DNA of 24,522 nucleotides. It comes from a virus. The notes under the pieces are model-generated. The model was not told the DNA's origin. It ran no database searches and saw only the letters and a list, made by a program, of their open reading frames with translations. Where the stretch lies: IMG/VR virus record IMGVR_UViG_3300034190_002949, positions 1 to 24,522 of that record, one strand, 5' to 3'. Shown piece by piece: positions 10,323 to 22,736 of the stretch; position 1 is the first letter of the stretch; every line of letters begins with the position of its first letter. A program made the position numbers and the translations under genes.

Positions 10323-10749
10323 ATTAATCGCATTTCTGCTGTTAGCAAACAGCAGTAATGCCGATGAATTATTATTCAAATTTAAAAGCCCAAGTTTCTC
10401 AGGAGTAAACAGCAGCAGTCATTACCTAACAATCGAGAATCAAGAAAACACCAGAAAGAACGCCATACGAGAAAAGATTGAATCCGATGCTGATGATTTA
10501 GCAAGAGCACAGCAGAATACAACACTAGCTCGGTTTATTCGTAATTTTGAATCAAGAGTTTATGCACAACTATCAAGGCAATTAGTAGATCAGTTATTTG
10601 GTGAGAATCCGAGCACGGAAGGTAAATTAGAGTTAGAAGGCAATTTAATAGAATACATAGCAGAAGCAGATAAAATTACATTGACAATTACTGATGAGAA
10701 TGGCGACACAACAACTATTACGGTTCCTACTGCTTCTTTCACTTTCTAG
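10279..10749 (+). CDS. csgF: CsgF-like curli assembly protein
   Basis: A 156-residue protein. An N-terminal signal peptide (basic KQKRKIRDTIR, then LIAFLLLANSSNA) precedes a mature start ELLFKFKSPSFSG that aligns well with E. coli CsgF (MTFQFRNPNFGG), the part that inserts into the CsgG pore. The middle (TLARFIRNFESRVYAQLSRQ) and the end (LTITDENGDTTTITVP) match CsgF's helix and C-terminal strands. CsgF works at the outer membrane, where it binds the CsgG channel and helps anchor nucleation of curli amyloid. The ATG at 10279 lies within the preceding gene; no closer ATG exists. The 3' end overlaps csgG by 56 bases. Confidence 0.85.
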   Translation: MTLQKQKRKIRDTIRLIAFLLLANSSNADELLFKFKSPSFSGVNSSSHYLTIENQENTRKNAIREKIESDADDLARAQQNTTLARFIRNFESRVYAQLSRQLVDQLFGENPSTEGKLELEGNLIEYIAEADKITLTITDENGDTTTITVPTASFTF

Positions 10750-11503
10750 TTGTGCAGTTAATTATAGTGATCTACAAAAAGATGGATTACCATATATTGT
10801 AATAAACGAAGCATCGGTGATTCAGCTTCAATCCGAAGAATTGAAGGCTGTACCACCAGCCAAAAGAAAACCAGTCATCGCCGTTTATGCGAACAGTCTG
10901 CAAGACCTAACCGGGCAAAGAAAATCCAATGGCCAGTTTGCATTGTTCTCGACAGCAATCACACAAGCGCCAGAGGCGTACTTAATTAGAGCCTTAAAAC
11001 ACACTGCTAATGGAAAATTCTATCAAGTAGTAGAGAGAGTCGGTTTAGACAGTTTAACCAAGGAAAGGCAATTAATACGCTCTACAAGGGATAACTTTGA
11101 CGAGGAGAGCAAGGTACAACCTCTTTTGTTGGCTGGACTGTTAATTCAAGGAGGCGTGTTATCTCTAGATACTAGCGTAAAGAGCGGGGGTCTTGGCGGC
11201 AGAATATTAGGTATCTCGTCAAGCAAGCAATGGCGAGAAGATACGATCACCGTGTCATTGAGGCTGGTATCGGTTTCTACTGGTGAAGTGTTGATTGAGA
11301 CATTAACCAGTAAAACCGTTTTATCGGTTTCGTTATCACAGGATGTGTTTCGCTTTATTAGCCAGGGCAGTCAACTATTGGAACTTGAGGGTGGGGTAAC
11401 TGAGAACGAGAGCACTTCAATTGCTCTACAAAGAGCAATTGAAAGTGCGGTACATGAAATAACTTTAATCGGTGTAGATAGAGGATACTGGGAGTATGAA
11501 TAA
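10694..11503 (+). CDS. csgG: CsgG-family outer-membrane secretion channel lipoprotein
   Basis: A 269-residue protein with a lipoprotein signal (LLRFLLLLSLSSC, lipobox Cys20). The body follows CsgG closely: TGQ...FSTA, then VKSGGLGGRILGISSSKQWR, VSLRLVSVSTGEVL, SKTVLS, DVFRFI, and the ending IGVDRGYWEYE (E. coli: DGIDRGLWDLQ). CsgG forms a nonameric beta-barrel that exports unfolded curlin subunits. In the constriction loop the phenylalanine equivalent to E. coli Phe56 is kept (ALFSTA), but Asn55 is replaced by Leu and the Tyr51 region is altered and one residue longer. A second possible start is ATG 10700. No CsgE gene is present in the window, so gating may differ. Confidence 0.93.
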   Translation: MRMATQQLLRFLLLLSLSSCAVNYSDLQKDGLPYIVINEASVIQLQSEELKAVPPAKRKPVIAVYANSLQDLTGQRKSNGQFALFSTAITQAPEAYLIRALKHTANGKFYQVVERVGLDSLTKERQLIRSTRDNFDEESKVQPLLLAGLLIQGGVLSLDTSVKSGGLGGRILGISSSKQWREDTITVSLRLVSVSTGEVLIETLTSKTVLSVSLSQDVFRFISQGSQLLELEGGVTENESTSIALQRAIESAVHEITLIGVDRGYWEYE

Positions 11504-12212
11504 ATTATTTTTAGGTATATTTTTAATATTGATAATATCGTTAGCCTACGCTGACGATAACGAGATATTCGTAGATCAAGTAGGTGCTACAGCAAATATT
11601 GATCTTGAGCAATTGGGATCAGGAAATATTATTGGTGGTATTAATGCACAAGCCGGGAACATGACGGCGTTAGATTTAGACGGAACGTCCATGACGTTAG
11701 ATATAAATCAGATCGGTAACAGTAATAAATTCTTTGGCGATATGTATGCTGACAGTTATACAGGTTTCTTTGAGTTTGATGGCGACTCAAATACATTCAC
11801 ATCGAAGATGGATCCAACGAATGCGTTTGGTGCTGATAACTCAAACGTAAACGTTGATATTACAGGTGGAAGTAATACGTTCACTTTGGATTTAGCAACA
11901 ACAGCATTAGCCAGTAGTACCGATTTAGATTGGATTGTGCAAGGTGACAGCAATCAAATTGATGCAGACATCAATTATGATAGCGGCACCAATTACATGA
12001 ACGTAGACGGTGATTCTAATAATATTAATTTTGTAGGATCAGGTGCAGCACAAGGATATTTTCACATAGAGCATGACGGCGACTCAAGGACATTTGACAT
12101 TGATCAAATTACAACATTGGATAGTAGCTATCTCAAGATTCTGTCTAACGGCAATAATGGTACTTTCTGTATCCAGCAAGACGATGCCTCAGGAACTTCC
12201 CTTGGATGTTGA
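11496..12212 (+). CDS. curlin-repeat secreted protein (CsgA/CsgB-like)
   Basis: A 238-residue protein with a clear signal peptide (MNKLFLGIFLILIISLAYA). The mature part is acidic and built of about eight curlin-type units of roughly 20-28 residues around the core hydrophobic-x-hydrophobic-x-G-x-S-N-x-hydrophobic-x-hydrophobic, for example LDINQIGNSNKFFGDM, FEFDGDSNTFTSKM, VDITGGSNTFTLDL, WIVQGDSNQIDADI and MNVDGDSNNINFVG. Such units stack as a beta-solenoid in curli amyloid. The C-terminus contains two cysteines (FCIQQDDASGTSLGC). It overlaps csgG by 8 bases, so it is the probable CsgG substrate. Whether it acts as fibre subunit, nucleator or soluble adhesin cannot be told from sequence. Confidence 0.82.
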   Translation: MNKLFLGIFLILIISLAYADDNEIFVDQVGATANIDLEQLGSGNIIGGINAQAGNMTALDLDGTSMTLDINQIGNSNKFFGDMYADSYTGFFEFDGDSNTFTSKMDPTNAFGADNSNVNVDITGGSNTFTLDLATTALASSTDLDWIVQGDSNQIDADINYDSGTNYMNVDGDSNNINFVGSGAAQGYFHIEHDGDSRTFDIDQITTLDSSYLKILSNGNNGTFCIQQDDASGTSLGC

Positions 12213-13230
12213 TATTGGAAGTATCACAGAGTTAAGAGGGAACACCAGAGTAGTAAGAGATAAGCCCTATGAGAGCGTTATAGACTTCTCTCTTAACTCT
12301 ATGGATCGCTTAGAGACGGCTAATGGACGAATGGGCGTTACGTTCCGGGATGAGACAACTATAAGACTCACACAGCATAGTGAGGTTGTTGTAGATGAAT
12401 TTGTATTCGATCCTGACCCAAGCAAGTCATCAATGGCTCTTAATTTTATTAAAGGCACTGGACGGTTTATATCCAGCAAAAAACCACGCATACCAAAAGA
12501 TAATATCTCGATACGCACTAATGCAGCCACGATCGGTATTCGTGGTACCGATTTTACTTTAACTGTAAAAGAGACCGGAGAGACGCTTGTAATACTTTTA
12601 CCGGATGAAACCGGTGAAGCAAGTGGCGAAATAACTGTCAATACGGCTCTGGGCCAAGTTATTTTAAATAAACCTTATGAATCTACGACAGTAATGAATT
12701 TTGAGTCTACCCCAACGCCATCGGTAATATTAGACCTTACTCTGAGCATGATTGATAACATGCTCATAGTAAATCCACCTCAAGAAAAAGAATCTACTGT
12801 TAATGAAACTAATACGAATGCAGTCAATATATTAGATGTTGATTTTTTAGAGTTTGACGAATTAGAGCAAGACGAATTAAAAGAAGATGACCTGGAATAT
12901 ACCGAGTTAGATATTAACTATTTGGATGTTAATTTTTTAGAAGATTTATTGGATGTAATTGTAGATGTAGATGAATTAAAAAAAGCTGAAAAATCATTAG
13001 CTTCTGATGGAGTAAGAGGTACCGCAATCGGTTTTGATTCAGAAACTCAGATTAATACTTTTGTTAATGATAATGAGGTAAAATTAATTCGCCAGGTACA
13101 AGATACAATTCAAATAACAAATAGTAAAAGTGATTCAGTATCGATTACAATGGAGCAAGAAGGGAAAATTAATAAGATAGATATTAATGGTGGGTCATCA
13201 TCCACTATTAATATCAAACAAGGGAGCTAA
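12073..13230 (+). CDS. FecR-domain secreted protein with 5-residue leucine repeats and curlin-like tail
   Basis: A 385-residue reading frame. Residues about 49-163 are a FecR domain (GSITELRGNTRVVR, MGVTFRDETTIRLT, NAATIGIRGTDF). Residues 254-293 carry leucine every fifth position in an acidic setting. The last 40 residues (SITMEQEGKINKIDI, then STINIKQGS) resemble curlin repeats. The start is uncertain: ATG 12073, ATG 12157 and ATG 12184 are in frame, and TTG 12100 has AAGGA nine bases upstream and would give a signal peptide (IKLQHWIVAISRFCLTAIMVLSV). Any of these overlaps the curlin gene. FecR domains usually serve as periplasmic sensors or peptidoglycan/surface modules; here an anchoring or nucleating role for the amyloid is my inference. 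Confidence 0.75.
   Translation: MTATQGHLTLIKLQHWIVAISRFCLTAIMVLSVSSKTMPQELPLDVDIGSITELRGNTRVVRDKPYESVIDFSLNSMDRLETANGRMGVTFRDETTIRLTQHSEVVVDEFVFDPDPSKSSMALNFIKGTGRFISSKKPRIPKDNISIRTNAATIGIRGTDFTLTVKETGETLVILLPDETGEASGEITVNTALGQVILNKPYESTTVMNFESTPTPSVILDLTLSMIDNMLIVNPPQEKESTVNETNTNAVNILDVDFLEFDELEQDELKEDDLEYTELDINYLDVNFLEDLLDVIVDVDELKKAEKSLASDGVRGTAIGFDSETQINTFVNDNEVKLIRQVQDTIQITNSKSDSVSITMEQEGKINKIDINGGSSSTINIKQGS
12832..12951 (+). repeat. eight-unit 5-residue leucine repeat within the FecR protein
   Basis: Leucines occur at residues 254, 259, 264, 269, 274, 279, 284 and 289, exactly five apart. The unit is roughly L-(D/E)-x-(D/N)-(F/E/Y), for example LEFDE, LEQDE, LDINY, LDVNF. The period matches that of pentapeptide-repeat beta-helices, though the usual A-(D/N)-L-x-x register is not followed exactly. 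Confidence 0.75.
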
Positions 13231-15014: not shown

Positions 15015-15144
15015 CGTTCACCATTTCGCAGTAATGTATTTTATTTTTCATGTAATCTTTGTAATCTTCGTTAGACGCCCACATATATATCGCCAACACT
15101 GTAACCAGCATCAAAGACATTTTTAAATTATTAAATCTATCCAT
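14980..15144 (-). CDS. small membrane-anchored phage protein (54 residues)
   Basis: A 54-residue frame beginning with an ATGGATAG overlap on the stop of the nuclease gene, with GGAG upstream. An N-terminal hydrophobic segment (SLMLVTVLAIYMWA) is followed by a charged region and the ending HYCEMVNDGYPNYKKLDC. The YC-x-M-V...Y-P-x-Y...C pattern is one I recognise from small conserved phage proteins encoded beside recombination nucleases. One N-terminal inner-membrane anchor with the Cys-containing tail outside is likely. Function unknown. Confidence 0.65.
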   Translation of the reverse strand: MDRFNNLKMSLMLVTVLAIYMWASNEDYKDYMKNKIHYCEMVNDGYPNYKKLDC

Positions 15145-16246
15145 TTTTCGGCTCCACTTTTAGATTCTTTGCTTCAAATGTTGTTCTGATGTTTACTAAG
15201 TTTTCGTTTGAATCGAAATCAAATTCATTGCGGCATAAGAACGCAATCTCACTTGATGTATAACTGTTATCGTTTTCCATTGGATCATTGGCACCGACGT
15301 TATAAAAAACAACGTCATTCTTCTCAAATTTATTACCGCCAAGATGTTTCGCCGGAACTAACTCCGGTATCCATTGATGGTCCAAGCAGCCAGCTAACTG
15401 CTGCTTGTAATCAATGATCTTTTTAGTACGAGTACATCCCCATTGACCGCGATTCTTTCGATCAGTAAGGTTTGGGCGTGAAAACTTACAAGTACGGCAT
15501 ACAGGATTCAGAGGCGTGTATTCACCTAAGTAAATACCACGCTCCTCATCCGACATAAAATTCTTTACCTGGTAGGCCGACTTCGAGTAAGCGCCTTGTG
15601 GCGGTGCTTTTAAATTCAGCAACCACCACGCTTTATCCTTTAATTGATTGTAAATGATGGGATCGAAGTCCATCTGCTCCGAATAGATGGCACTCGTGTT
15701 CTTGTCATAAACAGTCACATAAGCGCCTTTCAATTCTTCTTCCGGGTATTGCTCGTTCATAGCGCCACCATAGAAATGCACTTGAGCGCCGTAAACTTCA
15801 TCCCAATCGTCATAAGCAAGGTTCTTTGTTTTACCTTCTTCTCTTGCTTGAGTACCGAGTTTATTTAAACGATTAAAGCGTTTTGAATTGGCTGATTTAC
15901 ATTCCCAGAGGAATGTACCATCAGCACAATCCAATAAGCCATCAATATGATAAGACAAGTGCCCACCGAAGAACGATCCGCCAATTTGCTCAGATCGTTC
16001 ATGGGTGCGTAGTTTTACATTAGGAGCCTTACGGATAAACTCAGCTATGTTATCCTCAAGCTGATGCCCTAATGCAAAAATACGAGCTAATCTGGCACCC
16101 TCAAGCGGCGGCATGCACCAACGCCATTCGAGCCATAGCTGCCTTGGACAAGGTTTGCCAAGGGATGATCCACCGAGATAGCCACGTCTTGACATGGGTT
16201 TTCCCATCTTCTCATCCACTGATTCCATTATTGATTCAATAGACAT
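15137..16246 (-). CDS. Cas4/RecB-like PD-(D/E)XK exonuclease with probable Fe-S cluster
   Basis: A 369-residue nuclease. The active site reads HQLED (His61, Glu64), YHIDG (Asp102), LWECKS (Glu115, Lys117) and a QVHFY motif (Gln155), the order seen in RecB-family PD-(D/E)XK enzymes. Cys33 (PCPRQLW) plus Cys250, Cys253 (CRTC), Cys271 (WGC) and Cys287 (AGC) supply the one-plus-three cysteine layout of Cas4/AddB Fe-S nucleases. Together with the upstream SSB-like and Sak4 genes it probably makes 3' single strands for phage recombination. Start at 16246 overlaps the previous stop by one base. Confidence 0.82.
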   Translation of the reverse strand: MSIESIMESVDEKMGKPMSRRGYLGGSSLGKPCPRQLWLEWRWCMPPLEGARLARIFALGHQLEDNIAEFIRKAPNVKLRTHERSEQIGGSFFGGHLSYHIDGLLDCADGTFLWECKSANSKRFNRLNKLGTQAREEGKTKNLAYDDWDEVYGAQVHFYGGAMNEQYPEEELKGAYVTVYDKNTSAIYSEQMDFDPIIYNQLKDKAWWLLNLKAPPQGAYSKSAYQVKNFMSDEERGIYLGEYTPLNPVCRTCKFSRPNLTDRKNRGQWGCTRTKKIIDYKQQLAGCLDHQWIPELVPAKHLGGNKFEKNDVVFYNVGANDPMENDNSYTSSEIAFLCRNEFDFDSNENLVNIRTTFEAKNLKVEPKNG

Positions 16247-16785
16247 TAGTCAGAATCCGCTAACCATGATGGCTCTTCGCCGATCTCTTCAACTCCGTCA
16301 TCCAAGAATTCTTCGACAGTTTTCTTTTCTGCAACCTTCGCTTTAGGTGCGGCAGTAGTTGTCGTAGATTCCTTTAGAAAACGATGGACTCGGTTAGATG
16401 CTGGTTTACCGCTTTTTGGCTCATAAACATAAGTTTGAACGGTACCCATCTTATTGATGAGTTGGCCCAAGCCATCTTCATCAATAGAGTCAGGTATATC
16501 AACACCGAAACAATCGAAGGCAAACTTCAAGATAAGTAATTTATCTCTTTGTGGTACGCCTTCTTTTTCTACTTCAATCCAACTTACGATCTCTGCTCCG
16601 GAGTCTAATTCTTCCATTGCAATAAGGACTGTTTTGTAATCTTGCTTATCAAGCAATCTTGCTTTACTGACAGTCACTTTATATTGACCGGCATCCAAGA
16701 TTTTTGGTGGTGGAAATTCACCCGGTCCGAGAACCGGCATATCTTGTAACTCTGTTCCGAATGCTACGCTAACTGCTTCACTCAT
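16246..16785 (-). CDS. probable single-stranded DNA-binding protein (phage SSB-like)
   Basis: A 179-residue protein. Residues about 30-130 look like an OB-type beta-rich domain (GQYKVTVSKARLLDKQDYKT, EIVSWIEVEKEG, TVQTYVYEP), followed by a Thr/Ala/Lys linker and a very acidic tail ending EEPSWLADSD. The acidic tail is typical of SSB proteins, where it recruits partners. It sits between Sak4 and the Cas4-like nuclease with a 4-base overlap upstream and one base downstream, the usual place for a phage SSB. No exact family recalled; assignment rests on architecture and neighbours. Confidence 0.6.
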   Translation of the reverse strand: MSEAVSVAFGTELQDMPVLGPGEFPPPKILDAGQYKVTVSKARLLDKQDYKTVLIAMEELDSGAEIVSWIEVEKEGVPQRDKLLILKFAFDCFGVDIPDSIDEDGLGQLINKMGTVQTYVYEPKSGKPASNRVHRFLKESTTTTAAPKAKVAEKKTVEEFLDDGVEEIGEEPSWLADSD

Positions 16786-17561
16786 TGTTTTGTTTCCTCT
16801 GCTTTAAAAGCATTGTTATATGATTTAATAAAAGCACCGAAATCTAATGCGATCTGATGCTTACCGTTGTCGTTAACAATAGGTCGTCGTGATTTCGCAT
16901 CGAAACCAGTTGAACCTCTTGTAAATAAAACGCGACTGTCGTCGCCTATGGCGACAGTGCGTTTGTTAAACCCTTCACCACGAGATACCGTGCGTACTTC
17001 GTAATTTGCAAACAGCAAGAACGATGTCCACTCTTTAACGAGCGAGGCTGCCTTTGTATGCAGTTTCAACTCGATCTTCTGGTATGGCTCAAGAAGGGGA
17101 TCCTGGCGGGTGACAGTGTGGGTGTGGCAAATAATGCAAACGTTCATGCCACTCTCAATCACCTTGTCAAAAATACCCAATGTATGCCGCATCTTTTTAA
17201 GAGCATGAGAGTAACCACGCCCATACTCAATATCTGAAATGTCCTCGATGCCTTCTTTCTTGCGACTAAACTCAGCAACCACTGACCGATGAATTAAAGC
17301 CTCATAGAAATCCAGACTGTCTAAAACGACACTCTTGTATGGATGTTTTGAATCGATTAATTCTTGCAATATTTCTAATACTTGCGTATCGGATTCTGCA
17401 TATACACGATTCACATCCAAATGATGCGTGCCTTTCTCTAAGTCTATAAATAATGGTTTTGGCATTTGACTGGCAAATGTTGATTTACCGACACCGTTGA
17501 CCCCTGAGACCAATATGTTTAAGGGCGTCTCTACTCTTCCCTTTACCAATTTGATTGGCAT
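16782..17561 (-). CDS. Sak4-like RecA-fold single-strand annealing recombinase
   Basis: A 259-residue P-loop ATPase. Walker A is GVNGVGKST (residues 20-28), Walker B is SVVLDSLDF (Asp81), and a later CIICHTHT block matches the RecA-core sensor region. Size and lack of an N-terminal extension match the phage Sak4 group (Rad51-like annealing proteins). It would act with the neighbouring SSB and nuclease in recombination-dependent replication or repair. AAAGGAG seven bases before ATG 17561 is a strong ribosome site. The gene is first of the closely overlapping trio. Confidence 0.85.
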   Translation of the reverse strand: MPIKLVKGRVETPLNILVSGVNGVGKSTFASQMPKPLFIDLEKGTHHLDVNRVYAESDTQVLEILQELIDSKHPYKSVVLDSLDFYEALIHRSVVAEFSRKKEGIEDISDIEYGRGYSHALKKMRHTLGIFDKVIESGMNVCIICHTHTVTRQDPLLEPYQKIELKLHTKAASLVKEWTSFLLFANYEVRTVSRGEGFNKRTVAIGDDSRVLFTRGSTGFDAKSRRPIVNDNGKHQIALDFGAFIKSYNNAFKAEETKQ

Positions 17562-19284: not shown

Positions 19285-19470
19285 GTGACACCAGAAAACA
19301 TTTGGAAAGAAATCAAAGTGTACGATCTAGCAAAAAAGATCGGCATTTCACCGAAATCAATTTATTCATGGAAGAAAAGAAAGAACGGCATACCGCCGTT
19401 GAGGGCGATTGAGGTAGAGCAAATCACAGGAATACCAAGATCAGAGTTGAGACCTGATCTATGGGATTGA
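19285..19470 (+). CDS. Cro-like small DNA-binding protein (YdaS-type HTH)
   Basis: A 61-residue protein starting at GTG 19285, preceded by AGGGGA; the overlapping ATG at 19283 meets TGA at once. The helix-turn-helix reads VYDLAKKIGISPKSIYSWKK, followed by PPLRAIEVEQITGIPRSELRPDLW. The ending is characteristic of YdaS/Cro-like proteins. As the first gene of the rightward early transcript and divergent from the XRE repressor, it is the likely lytic-switch partner acting on the same operators. Confidence 0.88.
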   Translation: MTPENIWKEIKVYDLAKKIGISPKSIYSWKKRKNGIPPLRAIEVEQITGIPRSELRPDLWD

Positions 19471-21224
19471 TGCTCTTAGACAAACCGAAAACTCAAGAGG
19501 ACGTCCAAGACGCCATCCTTGAGTTATCTCGTGAGCTTGATGTCCATGTCATTCCTTGCGGTAAAGATAAGCGGCCACTCGTGCCCTGGAAGCATTATCA
19601 AGAGAACAAACCAACCGAACAAGACATTGAGAAATGGATAAAGCAGCACCCGGATTGTATGTGGGGTGCTATTACCGGTCCAAAATCTTTTGGCGTCGTT
19701 GACCTTGATACTTATCAAGACGATTCGCTGATACCTTGGGCCAAGGAGAATCTACCTTGGACTCCTTTAAAAGCCACCACAAAATCTGGTGGGCAACATT
19801 GGATTTACTCAAAAATGCCAGAGGATACTACCGTCAGTGCTGGCTCTGGAATTGATCTAAGGAACAAGGGCGGTTATGTCATTTTCTCTGGACCAGGTTA
19901 CGAATGGAATTGGCAAGACCCGACTGAGGACTTTTTTAATTTCAGAGAATTGCCGGAGCTAGAGCCACAACATATAGAGAAAATTGAAAGGCGTCGCGGC
20001 AAAAATAAAGTCACTAATATATTAAGTGATGAGAGTTGGCATGATAACGCACTACGTTGGGTTGGCAGTTGCGTTGCCAGAGGACTCGGTGACGACACGA
20101 TATTAAGGGAGTGTGAGAAATTAACTCAAGCCGGTTACTCACACTCACAAACCAGAGAAGAAATCCGGGTGATGATAAAAGGCGCCAGACTGAAAGGCTG
20201 GACTCCACCTATTGATGATCGCCCAATCGAAGTATTGAGAATAGATGACGCATTTGATTTAGAGCATCGTAAACCACCGGAGTTTCTAGGTGAGGGATTC
20301 ATCGCCGCCGGGTTTAGGGTATTTGTAGTCGGTGCTCCGAAGATCGGTAAATCACAATTGGTATTAGAGGCTCTAACAACTGCCGCAGTTGGCGGCAAGT
20401 GGTTAGATATGAAATGGGATAAGCCACATAAGACATTGTGGTTACAGGCAGAGATCAGAGGTGCCTATGTTGGCTCTCGGTTACGTCCATTATTTGAGTC
20501 ATTTAATGACGATGAAAAGGAACTCATCAGAGAGAATTTCTTTTGGACTGAGAGAGGCGATCTTGATTTAGCCTCTAACTTTAATCGTCTTAAAGCATTA
20601 ATAAAACGAATACAGCCATCTATCGTTTGTATAGATCCATTGGCTAACTACTTTGTAGGCGATGAGAACTCTAACGCCGAAGTTGCTGTTTTCTTTAAGA
20701 AACTGAATGAGCTATTTGCCAGTGAGACATTAGGGATGGACGCACCACCTTGTGTGTTCTTAGTGCATCACACCAGAAAAGGTGCCACTACCCAAGACGG
20801 ATTTGATGGTGCTCGTGGAGCATCATCACTCACCGGGTGGATGGACTCAGGTATTTTAATGACGGCAGCTAATACCAGTGCGATTAATTTAAGTTTCTTA
20901 ACTAGGAACGGACCTTGGCCAGAAGAACGCCTCGTTAAATTAAATCCAGATTCAATGCGGTTAGAAAACTTTGTAGATGCTGTCGAGCATCCACAAATGC
21001 TACCGGAGATTATGAAGAGCATGGCCCATAGAGATTGGGTGAGTGCATACGATGTGAACAGTTTAATTGCGGAGCAATGTCATCGCCTTGGCTTAGAGGT
21101 GGATGGCGAGATTGCCAGAGAGATCAGATTGACAGTCGTGAATCATAAACATATTGAGCATCAAGGTACTGGGCAGAATACCGAGTATCGATTAAAACCG
21201 AAGGTGAGGAGAGGGTATCAATGA
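19461..21224 (+). CDS. primase-polymerase / replicative helicase fusion
   Basis: A 587-residue protein. Residues about 15-165 form a Prim-Pol domain: VVDLDTY (Asp81, Asp83), KSGGQHWIY (His113) and GIDLRNKGGYVI give the metal and nucleotide site. Residues about 280-480 are a RecA-like ATPase of the RepA/AAA_25 type: Walker A GAPKIGKSQ (291-299), Walker B SIVCIDPL (Asp392) and FLVHHTRKG (His437). The C-terminal 90 residues may be a winged-helix or origin-binding part. It probably primes and unwinds the phage origin. The start overlaps the cro-like stop; ATG 19470 in a TGATG junction is an alternative start. Confidence 0.9.
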   Translation: MGLMLLDKPKTQEDVQDAILELSRELDVHVIPCGKDKRPLVPWKHYQENKPTEQDIEKWIKQHPDCMWGAITGPKSFGVVDLDTYQDDSLIPWAKENLPWTPLKATTKSGGQHWIYSKMPEDTTVSAGSGIDLRNKGGYVIFSGPGYEWNWQDPTEDFFNFRELPELEPQHIEKIERRRGKNKVTNILSDESWHDNALRWVGSCVARGLGDDTILRECEKLTQAGYSHSQTREEIRVMIKGARLKGWTPPIDDRPIEVLRIDDAFDLEHRKPPEFLGEGFIAAGFRVFVVGAPKIGKSQLVLEALTTAAVGGKWLDMKWDKPHKTLWLQAEIRGAYVGSRLRPLFESFNDDEKELIRENFFWTERGDLDLASNFNRLKALIKRIQPSIVCIDPLANYFVGDENSNAEVAVFFKKLNELFASETLGMDAPPCVFLVHHTRKGATTQDGFDGARGASSLTGWMDSGILMTAANTSAINLSFLTRNGPWPEERLVKLNPDSMRLENFVDAVEHPQMLPEIMKSMAHRDWVSAYDVNSLIAEQCHRLGLEVDGEIAREIRLTVVNHKHIEHQGTGQNTEYRLKPKVRRGYQ

Positions 21225-21727
21225 TAAGAGTATTTGATATTTGCTCTGGCATCGGTGGATTCAGCCTTGGGCTGCATGCCACCGGTGGCTATAAGACTGT
21301 CGGTTTCTGTGAGTTTGATGAGTATTGTCAAACAATTTTAAAGAAGAATTTTCCTGATGTACCTATTTTCAAAGATTTAAAGGAGTTAGCTAAAGATGAA
21401 GATACAATCCGATCTATTCCCGACCATGACCTCATCTGTGGGGGAGTGCCATGTCAAAGTTGGAGTGCCGCCGGTAAACAAAAAGGCACAGAAGATGACA
21501 GGCACCTCTGGCCGTCAATGTTTGAAATTATTAAAGGCAAAAGACCCACTTATGTTGTTGTCGAAAACGTTAATGGTTTCGTCACCCTGGGAGGGGCCGA
21601 CCTCGTATCAAATGACTTGGAAGCCGAAGGCTACGCTACGGCGGCGTTTATTATTCCAGCTTTATCCACAAAAGCTCCCCACCGAAGGGATCGAGTCTGG
21701 ATCATCGGGAAAAAAATCCAAAAGTGA
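21221..21727 (+). CDS. C5 cytosine methyltransferase, catalytic N-terminal half (motifs I-VIII)
   Basis: A 168-residue protein with an ATGA overlap on the Prim-Pol stop. Motif I FDICSGIGGFSLGL binds S-adenosylmethionine, motif IV GGVPCQSW carries the nucleophile Cys78, motif VI is VVVENVN (Glu115) and motif VIII is HRRDRVWIIG. It stops right after motif VIII (GKKIQK, TGA at 21725). The target recognition region and motifs IX-X, needed for a full enzyme, are in the next gene in another frame. So this is either the alpha subunit of a two-chain methyltransferase or the front part of a frameshifted one. It may protect phage DNA from restriction. Confidence 0.88.
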   Translation: MIRVFDICSGIGGFSLGLHATGGYKTVGFCEFDEYCQTILKKNFPDVPIFKDLKELAKDEDTIRSIPDHDLICGGVPCQSWSAAGKQKGTEDDRHLWPSMFEIIKGKRPTYVVVENVNGFVTLGGADLVSNDLEAEGYATAAFIIPALSTKAPHRRDRVWIIGKKIQK

Positions 21728-22736
21728 TACTTGGGCAACTCCAACCACACAAGAGATTGAACATCCTAATGCTGAACTTACTGCCACTGGCAGAAGAAAA
21801 TCTAAAGATGGAAAGAGCAGCCACAGTTTAAATTTAGCCGATCAAGTGAATATGTGGCCAACTCCAAGAGTATCCGATACTGAGGGTGGTGTTGTTAAGA
21901 ATGTTGAAAAGAAAAATGACTCATATTCCAGAGTCAATAAAAAAGGTGTCAGATTCGGAGTCAAACTAAAAGATGCTGTTGGCTATGAAGAAGAAAAACT
22001 ATGGCCAACACCGATAGCATCATCCAGTCAATCAGCATCAATGGAAGCCAGTAAAAAAGAAGCCGAGAGATTACATCCAAAAGGACAAAATCATTTAGCT
22101 GCTGAAATGGCGAGTAGATTATGGGAAACACCAACTGCCGGAATGGGTAAAGTTGACACGCCCAATATTGAATACCATAAACGTAGGAAATCACTTGGTA
22201 AGCAAGTTGGCTTGCCCGGACAAGTACAGTTAGAAGAAGCAACATGGCCAACACCAACAGTACAAGATTCAAATAAAGCTACTAAAAAATGGCGAGAGAA
22301 ACATCAAAATAATTTAACTGCTGCTGTATTTAATCCAGAGCAAATATTACCTACTCCTACCTCAAGAGATTGGAAAGGTGGTTATCGTACTGAGTCATTA
22401 ATTAGAAATGATGGTAAAAGCCGAGCGATGGATCAATTACCTAACGCAGCTATTGGCGGTGTTGGTACTGAGAAAGTTGTAGGTCATCTCAATCCTGATT
22501 GGGTGGAATGGCTAATGGGATATGCAACAGGCTATACCGATCCTGAGTATACCGAGCCAATGCAATTACAAGATCATTTAGGTTTTGAAAGTGAACCAGA
22601 CATACCCAGAGTAACCACCAGAAAAGAACATCGAGTAAACCGATTGAAGTGTTTAGGCAATTCAATTGTGCCACAAATAATGCATGAGATTGGGAAGGCA
22701 ATCTTGAAGGATAAAGAGGCAGAAGGGGTTAAATAA
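21396..22736 (+). CDS. C5 methyltransferase target-recognition/C-terminal half, overlapping in +1 frame
   Basis: A 446-residue frame starting at ATG 21396 inside the catalytic gene, with AAGGAG about ten bases upstream. Residues 1-110 are dual-coded with motifs IV-VIII of the neighbour; part of this (QMTWKPKATLRRRLLFQLYP...PTEGIESG) matches an N-terminal pattern I recall from stand-alone phage proteins. Then come six W-x-T-P blocks (TWATPT, MWPTPR, LWPTPI, LWETPT, TWPTPT, LPTPTS) over about 230 residues, NPDWVEWLMGYATGY, and motif X-like RLKCLGNSIVPQI. It would supply DNA target recognition. Alternatively its 5' part is unused and the gene is read by a shift at the A7 run 21710-21716. Confidence 0.75.
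   Translation: MKIQSDLFPTMTSSVGECHVKVGVPPVNKKAQKMTGTSGRQCLKLLKAKDPLMLLSKTLMVSSPWEGPTSYQMTWKPKATLRRRLLFQLYPQKLPTEGIESGSSGKKSKSDTWATPTTQEIEHPNAELTATGRRKSKDGKSSHSLNLADQVNMWPTPRVSDTEGGVVKNVEKKNDSYSRVNKKGVRFGVKLKDAVGYEEEKLWPTPIASSSQSASMEASKKEAERLHPKGQNHLAAEMASRLWETPTAGMGKVDTPNIEYHKRRKSLGKQVGLPGQVQLEEATWPTPTVQDSNKATKKWREKHQNNLTAAVFNPEQILPTPTSRDWKGGYRTESLIRNDGKSRAMDQLPNAAIGGVGTEKVVGHLNPDWVEWLMGYATGYTDPEYTEPMQLQDHLGFESEPDIPRVTTRKEHRVNRLKCLGNSIVPQIMHEIGKAILKDKEAEGVK
21710..21716 (+). other. A7 run at the frame junction of the methyltransferase
   Basis: Seven A occur just before the catalytic half ends. Reading six A instead would join WIIGKK directly to SKSDTWATPT and give a continuous 504-residue methyltransferase. 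Such runs are also sites of polymerase slippage and sequencing error. Confidence 0.6.

Follow-up and report, generated by a model that had tools for sequence, protein, structure and literature searches.

Multispecific phage C5 methyltransferases of the M.SPRI type carry several recognition modules of about 40 residues within a single chain read in one frame, and the two-polypeptide enzyme M.EcoHK31I is encoded by two frames that overlap. Two-chain C5 methyltransferases have long been known through M.EcoHK31I and M.AquI, the nested arrangement from very few characterised enzymes, and it is provisionally the breadth of the family reported below that is new, as the literature search, in which no paper describing family-wide nesting, its pattern of selection or the move of motif X was found, was limited to open-licence papers. 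M.EcoHK31I (YGGCCR) has a large chain holding motifs I-VIII and X, in which its predicted recognition domain has also been placed, and a small chain holding motif IX (PMC3404938; described as a two-polypeptide enzyme also in PMC3439449). M.AquI (CYCGRG) likewise consists of two polypeptides, with motifs I-VIII in alpha and motifs IX and X in beta (PMC3404938).

The locus under study lies in the window, by which is meant the whole stretch of DNA analysed, a linear virus record of 24.5 kb (classed as in IMG/VR). A C5 cytosine methyltransferase is read there from two frames of the same strand, termed frame 0 (alpha) and +1 (beta), with the following features:

21221..21727, plus strand: alpha chain, 168 aa, frame 0; C5 cytosine methyltransferase catalytic large domain with motifs I-VIII
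21236..21265, plus strand: motif I (DICSGIGGFS), in alpha
21380..21385, plus strand: AAGGAG, candidate Shine-Dalgarno sequence of beta, ten bases 5' of the ATG at 21396
21396..22736, plus strand: beta chain, 446 aa, +1 frame; dual-coded N-terminal part, six WPTP cassettes, motifs IX and X
21396..21727, plus strand: doubly read stretch (alpha/beta overlap), 332 nt; from ORF coordinates, a synonymous shuffle (P 0.002) and suppressed alpha third-position change in relatives
21443..21463, plus strand: motif IV (GVPCQSW) with the catalytic PCQ, in alpha
21554..21571, plus strand: motif VI (VVVENV), in alpha
21615..21662, plus strand: dual-coded core of beta (TWKPKAT..RRRLLFQL), kept across relatives (alignments A1 and A2); predicted beta-hairpin
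21674..21703, plus strand: motif VIII (APHRRDRVWI), in alpha; its +1 reading is part of beta's conserved N-terminal stretch
21710..21716, plus strand: A7 run, not kept in the window clade; no sign of a slippage site
21728..22631, plus strand: frame 0 past the alpha stop, with about 34 in-frame stops ahead of motif X; coding lost
21732..22487, plus strand: six recognition cassettes in beta, about 34-49 residues each, starting at 21732, 21855, 22002, 22122, 22245 and 22347
22488..22520, plus strand: motif IX (LNPDWVEWLMG), in beta; invariant or nearly invariant columns in alignments A1, A2 and A6
22632..22673, plus strand: motif X (RVNRLKCLGNSIVP), in beta; located in alpha in most relatives

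Motifs I, IV (PCQ), VI (ENV), VIII, IX and X are all present, I-VIII in alpha and IX-X in beta; alpha stops 15 nt past the motif VIII match and every cassette lies in beta. A preliminary description of the DNA had placed motifs I-VIII in one frame and the recognition part and motif X in the +1 frame, with 332 shared bases, which the two ORFs (21221-21727 and 21396-22736) confirmed; motif IX, which it had left unnamed, was assigned to 22488-22520, and the AAGGAG and ATG that it had ascribed to the second frame were located at 21380-21385 and 21396. Alpha matched PF00145 (DNA_methylase) over positions 1-162 (E 2e-40) and phrog_363 (E 8e-58), and scored above the cutoff of TIGR00675. Full-length beta matched phrog_1008, 'DNA methyltransferase' (E 2e-29), as did its dual-coded stretch by itself (E 2e-7). 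The family of stand-alone phage proteins with such an N-terminus, to which the preliminary description had pointed, is therefore a real one. Both chains are thus already catalogued separately as 'DNA methyltransferase', under names that are silent on the shared two-frame gene.

Compared by published layout, the window resembles M.EcoHK31I in having two polypeptides and overlapping frames, but differs in that motif X is in beta and alpha ends after motif VIII; moreover, the recognition-type cassettes under selection here are in beta and not in the large chain. By the same comparison the division of motifs (I-VIII in alpha, IX-X in beta) is that of M.AquI, whose alpha, however, holds part of the variable region, whereas the corresponding region of the window is wholly in beta and 332 nt are dual-coded. 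The cassettes of the window, as candidate recognition modules of about 40 residues, resemble the modules of the M.SPRI type, but they are located in a second chain and another frame, and their multispecificity is putative. The window layout is also seen in a cultured phage, mycobacteriophage Scamp, where the two 'DNA methylase' genes gp79 and gp78 consist of an alpha that ends after motif VIII and a next gene in +1 with PTP cassettes, motif IX and a motif X-like end, although the annotated overlap is just 23 nt, with +1 open further upstream.

The preferred reading, to which a probability of roughly 0.88 was given, is that the product of the locus is a single C5 cytosine DNA methyltransferase, of EcoHK31I-like ancestry and with motif X relocated, whose two chains are initiated separately on the same message. 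Alpha would provide AdoMet binding and the catalytic cysteine through motifs I-VIII, while beta, initiated in the +1 frame at an internal ATG of its own, would contribute the dual-coded N-terminal part (probably for docking), the row of target-recognition cassettes and motifs IX and X. The two chains would then assemble into the active enzyme, a probable shield of phage DNA against host restriction at several sequences.

Viral contigs were searched for relatives with each of the two chains, GTDB genomes with beta. Relatives were confirmed in 408 of 577 candidate genome stretches, and two scans of viral sequence yielded at least 584 and at least 596, those from GTDB genomes belonging to Bacillota, Pseudomonadota, Bacteroidota, Acidobacteriota, Verrucomicrobiota and others. 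An alpha domain was present at 241 loci. Of these, 227 had motif IX in +1 and one (L069) had it in frame 0, while in 13 it was not found; for motif X, counted before redundancy removal, the numbers were 189 (frame 0) and 13 (+1). A second sample, picked by alpha alone, had motif IX in +1 at all 70 loci where it was detected, and at four further loci with variant motifs it was placed in +1 by eye. After redundancy removal 172 loci were left, 164 with motif IX in +1 and motif X in frame 0 and eight with both in +1, so the published motif layout of M.EcoHK31I is the common layout here. At the 164 EcoHK31I-like loci, motifs I-VIII and X belong to alpha, which is uninterrupted between I and X in 162, and the recognition region and motif IX to beta. 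The beta frame opens about 320 nt (5-95%: 296-476) ahead of the point where motif VIII ends. The coding overlap of alpha and beta has a median of 801 nt (516-1548), and in 145 of 162 loci the beta ORF is nested entirely within alpha. An alignment of 80 rows mixing alpha and beta was poor.

Nested two-frame coding is the rule in a large and mostly unannotated family of phage and prophage methyltransferases. The earlier interpretation, a conserved two-chain enzyme, was supported, the +1 frame being open in each of the 172 loci that, after redundancy removal, had both motif IX and motif X placed, and the relatives were not merely single continuous genes with a broken second frame. The dual-coded region of 332 nt given in the preliminary description holds for the window but not for most relatives, where it is far longer and alpha is long and includes motif X. 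Two loci with early alpha stops were also noted: in L055 alpha stops 27 nt past motif VIII with motif X further on in frame 0 (an error, a pseudogene or a third layout), and in L268 it stops 114 nt past motif VIII, motif X is in +1 and motif IX was not found, probably a broken or deleted copy.

Between motifs VIII and IX, the stop counts of the 164 EcoHK31I-like loci (23,010 codons) are 16 for frame 0, 0 for +1 and 1613 for +2; those of the eight window-like loci are 155, 0 and 75. Frame 0 fills with stops once motif X need no longer be reached in it, and +1 stays open; the decay of frame 0 in window-like loci is a natural control for nested coding. In an alpha tree built by a quick method, the window clade (seven rows, SH-aLRT 97) fell within a group (100) that includes the EcoHK31I-like loci L079, L086, L183 and L191. 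As the clade is nested among EcoHK31I-like loci, its M.AquI-like layout is derived and descends from EcoHK31I-like relatives. L094, from a Bacillota MAG, has the window layout, yet grouped with the EcoHK31I-like L126 (94), which suggests a second independent origin. In the ancestral layout, kept in most relatives, alpha runs through a hydrophilic linker to motif X with beta nested inside it; in the window clade, DNA encoding motif X entered the beta frame, freeing frame 0, which then decayed past motif VIII. With motif X moved into beta and a long dual-coded overlap, the window enzyme is a new variant of the two-chain enzyme. Peptides of the type 'ANSK/ANTD' in the window's frame 0 were considered as a relic of the alpha linker and set aside, as they arise from beta WPTP codons.

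On balance, we also lean towards a broader view, though with distinctly less assurance than for the locus itself: that this is a large and taxonomically broad phage and prophage class in which full nesting is obligate, in which +1 would hold the recognition half as an interchangeable, multi-specificity cassette array and the long alpha linker would be a passenger whose open frame serves solely to reach motif X, and in which a change of frame of motif X would have yielded an AquI-like pair at least twice independently.

Whether +1 could be open by chance was addressed by synonymous-codon shuffles of alpha. In the window overlap, +1 was open in 0.2% of 20,000 shuffles, with 4.0 stops expected; for 162 relatives a median of about 6.4 stops was expected against 0 observed, and in 141 of them +1 was open in 0 of 200 shuffles. 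Together with the stop counts, this ruled out a chance open frame. To examine selection, 46 independent pairs of relatives were compared; substitutions per site are given for positions 1/2/3 of the alpha codons, with ratios bootstrapped over pairs:

alpha-only zone 5' of beta:.086/.038/.272; pos3/pos1 3.17 (2.69-3.71)
overlap up to motif VIII:.061/.023/.111; pos3/pos1 1.82 (1.58-2.10)
recognition region:.173/.053/.035; pos3/pos1 0.20 (0.15-0.25)
around motif IX:.120/.032/.046; pos3/pos1 0.39 (0.30-0.49)
past the beta stop:.042/.027/.227; pos3/pos1 5.37 (3.65-8.64)

As alpha position 1 is the wobble position of beta, the signature runs from alpha to both chains, to beta and back to alpha, and the dual and beta zones were well separated from the alpha-only zones in the bootstrap. 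Change at the alpha third position is unrestrained at first; suppression sets in about 210 nt ahead of the end of motif VIII and persists, an onset that coincides with the start of beta's conserved stretch (KARKMT...TSG...TWK...RLLFQL). Pair alignments were built on the alpha protein, so that their bias runs against the dual-frame result. Suppressed synonymous change in the overlap, which the preliminary description had proposed as a check, was therefore found, and in the recognition region the pattern was reversed. Within the window clade itself the comparison is partly confounded by recombination, alpha starts being mosaic: third-position change was 19/54 upstream vs 8/105 in the overlap for the pair L076-L077, and 31/54 vs 8/106 for the window and L007, where the upstream part is mosaic, as L007, L008 and L015 are nearly identical there.

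An SD-like sequence ahead of a start codon was present in the first 45 beta codons at 155 of 172 loci, vs 65 (+2) and 3 (frame 0) in the controls, a count that depends on a loose motif. AAGGAG or AAGGAT is kept in L006-L008 and L015 and is weaker in L076 and L077. Conservation of both frames and of the Shine-Dalgarno sequence had been suggested earlier as a further check; the frames were kept at 172 of 172 loci, and the Shine-Dalgarno part held less completely, as SD-like starts at those 155. Internal initiation of beta is the best reading of these starts, and would be the route by which the second chain is made.

However, it was also conceivable that a programmed frameshift or transcript slippage at the alpha end produces an alpha-beta fusion, the internal beta start being unused, and an A-rich run does lie near the alpha stop of the window. 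This is considered improbable, since a fusion would need no conserved beta N-terminus, and it leaves both the suppressed alpha third-position change from -210 nt and the SD-like starts unexplained; in most relatives, furthermore, alpha reads through the entire region. L094 lacks the A7 run, and L076 and L077 lack it near their alpha ends; a programmed frameshift at that run was rejected on these grounds, and the run has no special role. Less probable again is that a single-chain gene was split by a frameshift (a mutation or an A7 homopolymer error), with the upstream +1 extension open by chance. The run at 21710-21716 does sit at the junction, and deleting one base joins the frames, but the same break occurs in five separate clade contigs and is followed by 15-35 frame-0 stops, L076, L077 and L094 share the layout with another junction, and upstream +1 is open and constrained across the whole family. 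This clade-wide conservation, with the 15-35 stops that follow in frame 0 of the five closest contigs, ruled out a homopolymer error or pseudogene. That +1 merely echoes motif VIII protein conservation and codon bias, beta not being made, is equally hard to sustain: frame-0 conservation of motif VIII alone forces some +1 similarity, but motif IX, a core enzyme motif, is located in +1 and not in frame 0, recognition-region substitutions track beta's wobble position, and in the window clade +1 is the sole open frame of that region.

The beta genes contain 1-7 cassettes each (575 in 172 loci, median 41 residues), opening with a [W/L/F]xTP motif and sitting at differing positions from gene to gene. 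The window and its closest relatives, L006, L007, L008 and L015, have near-identical cassettes that differ in order and number, and the cassettes look interchangeable. When clustered at 55% identity, no cassette type was repeated within one gene, against 17.0 +- 3.8 expected by permutation. This threshold was used because single linkage at low identity collapsed the cassettes into one uninformative cluster; at 45% it joined most of them, and repeats showed a small deficit (127 vs 134.8). The absence of repeats suggests an array of distinct recognition domains in beta, the same pattern also being given by loss of repeats through recombination, and the likely role would be anti-restriction via methylation at several sequences. 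Some beta genes, those of L017, L037, L170 and L183, have a far longer cassette (TTMDxKxDSLKHATK...) plus extra sequence.

An AlphaFold model of the window beta alone had a mean pLDDT of 62.5, its quality being poor except at the hairpin and around motifs IX and X. In the dual-coded part, two helices (29-44 and 52-62) and one hairpin (71-93) were confident, as were helices at motif X; the beta of a compact relative gave the same helix-helix-hairpin, its remainder being of low confidence. Sequence and fold searches of the PDB with beta gave no match. The beta models neither prove nor contradict docking on alpha.

Both frames are annotated in Paenibacillus phage Tadhana, in phage Lily ('g62 internal gene') and in coliphage K1ind3, whose beta label, 'Mte8-like', was taken as a lead only for kinship with M.EcoHK31I. 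Alpha alone is annotated in epsilon15, BASEL phage Bas73, a plasmid and an E. coli prophage, in all of which +1 is open for 220-348 codons with motif IX in +1. As many of the phage, plasmid and prophage records examined annotate only alpha, annotation lacks one half of a common enzyme, and attempts to clone the annotated alpha gene alone would be expected to fail. Bas73, epsilon15 and mycobacteriophages are laboratory phages suitable for testing the prediction. Hundreds of long genes nested on the same strand are further available in this family as natural replicates, with the frame-0 control built in. In L331 (E. coli NZ_CP041110.1), PGAP calls the prophage methyltransferase as two incomplete pieces.

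Other genes of the window include, upstream of an integrase, a CsgG-domain protein (PF03783, E 3e-45; 10694-11503, plus strand) and a FecR-domain protein (PF04773, 4e-11; 12073-13230, plus strand). An ART-PolyVal ADP-ribosyltransferase (PF18760; 8673-9968, plus strand) was a weak match, just under the Pfam cutoff. A Cas4-domain exonuclease (15137-16246) and a Sak4-like annealing protein (16782-17561) are on the minus strand, and a primase-polymerase/AAA gene (19461-21224, plus strand) has a 4-nt overlap with the start of the methyltransferase.
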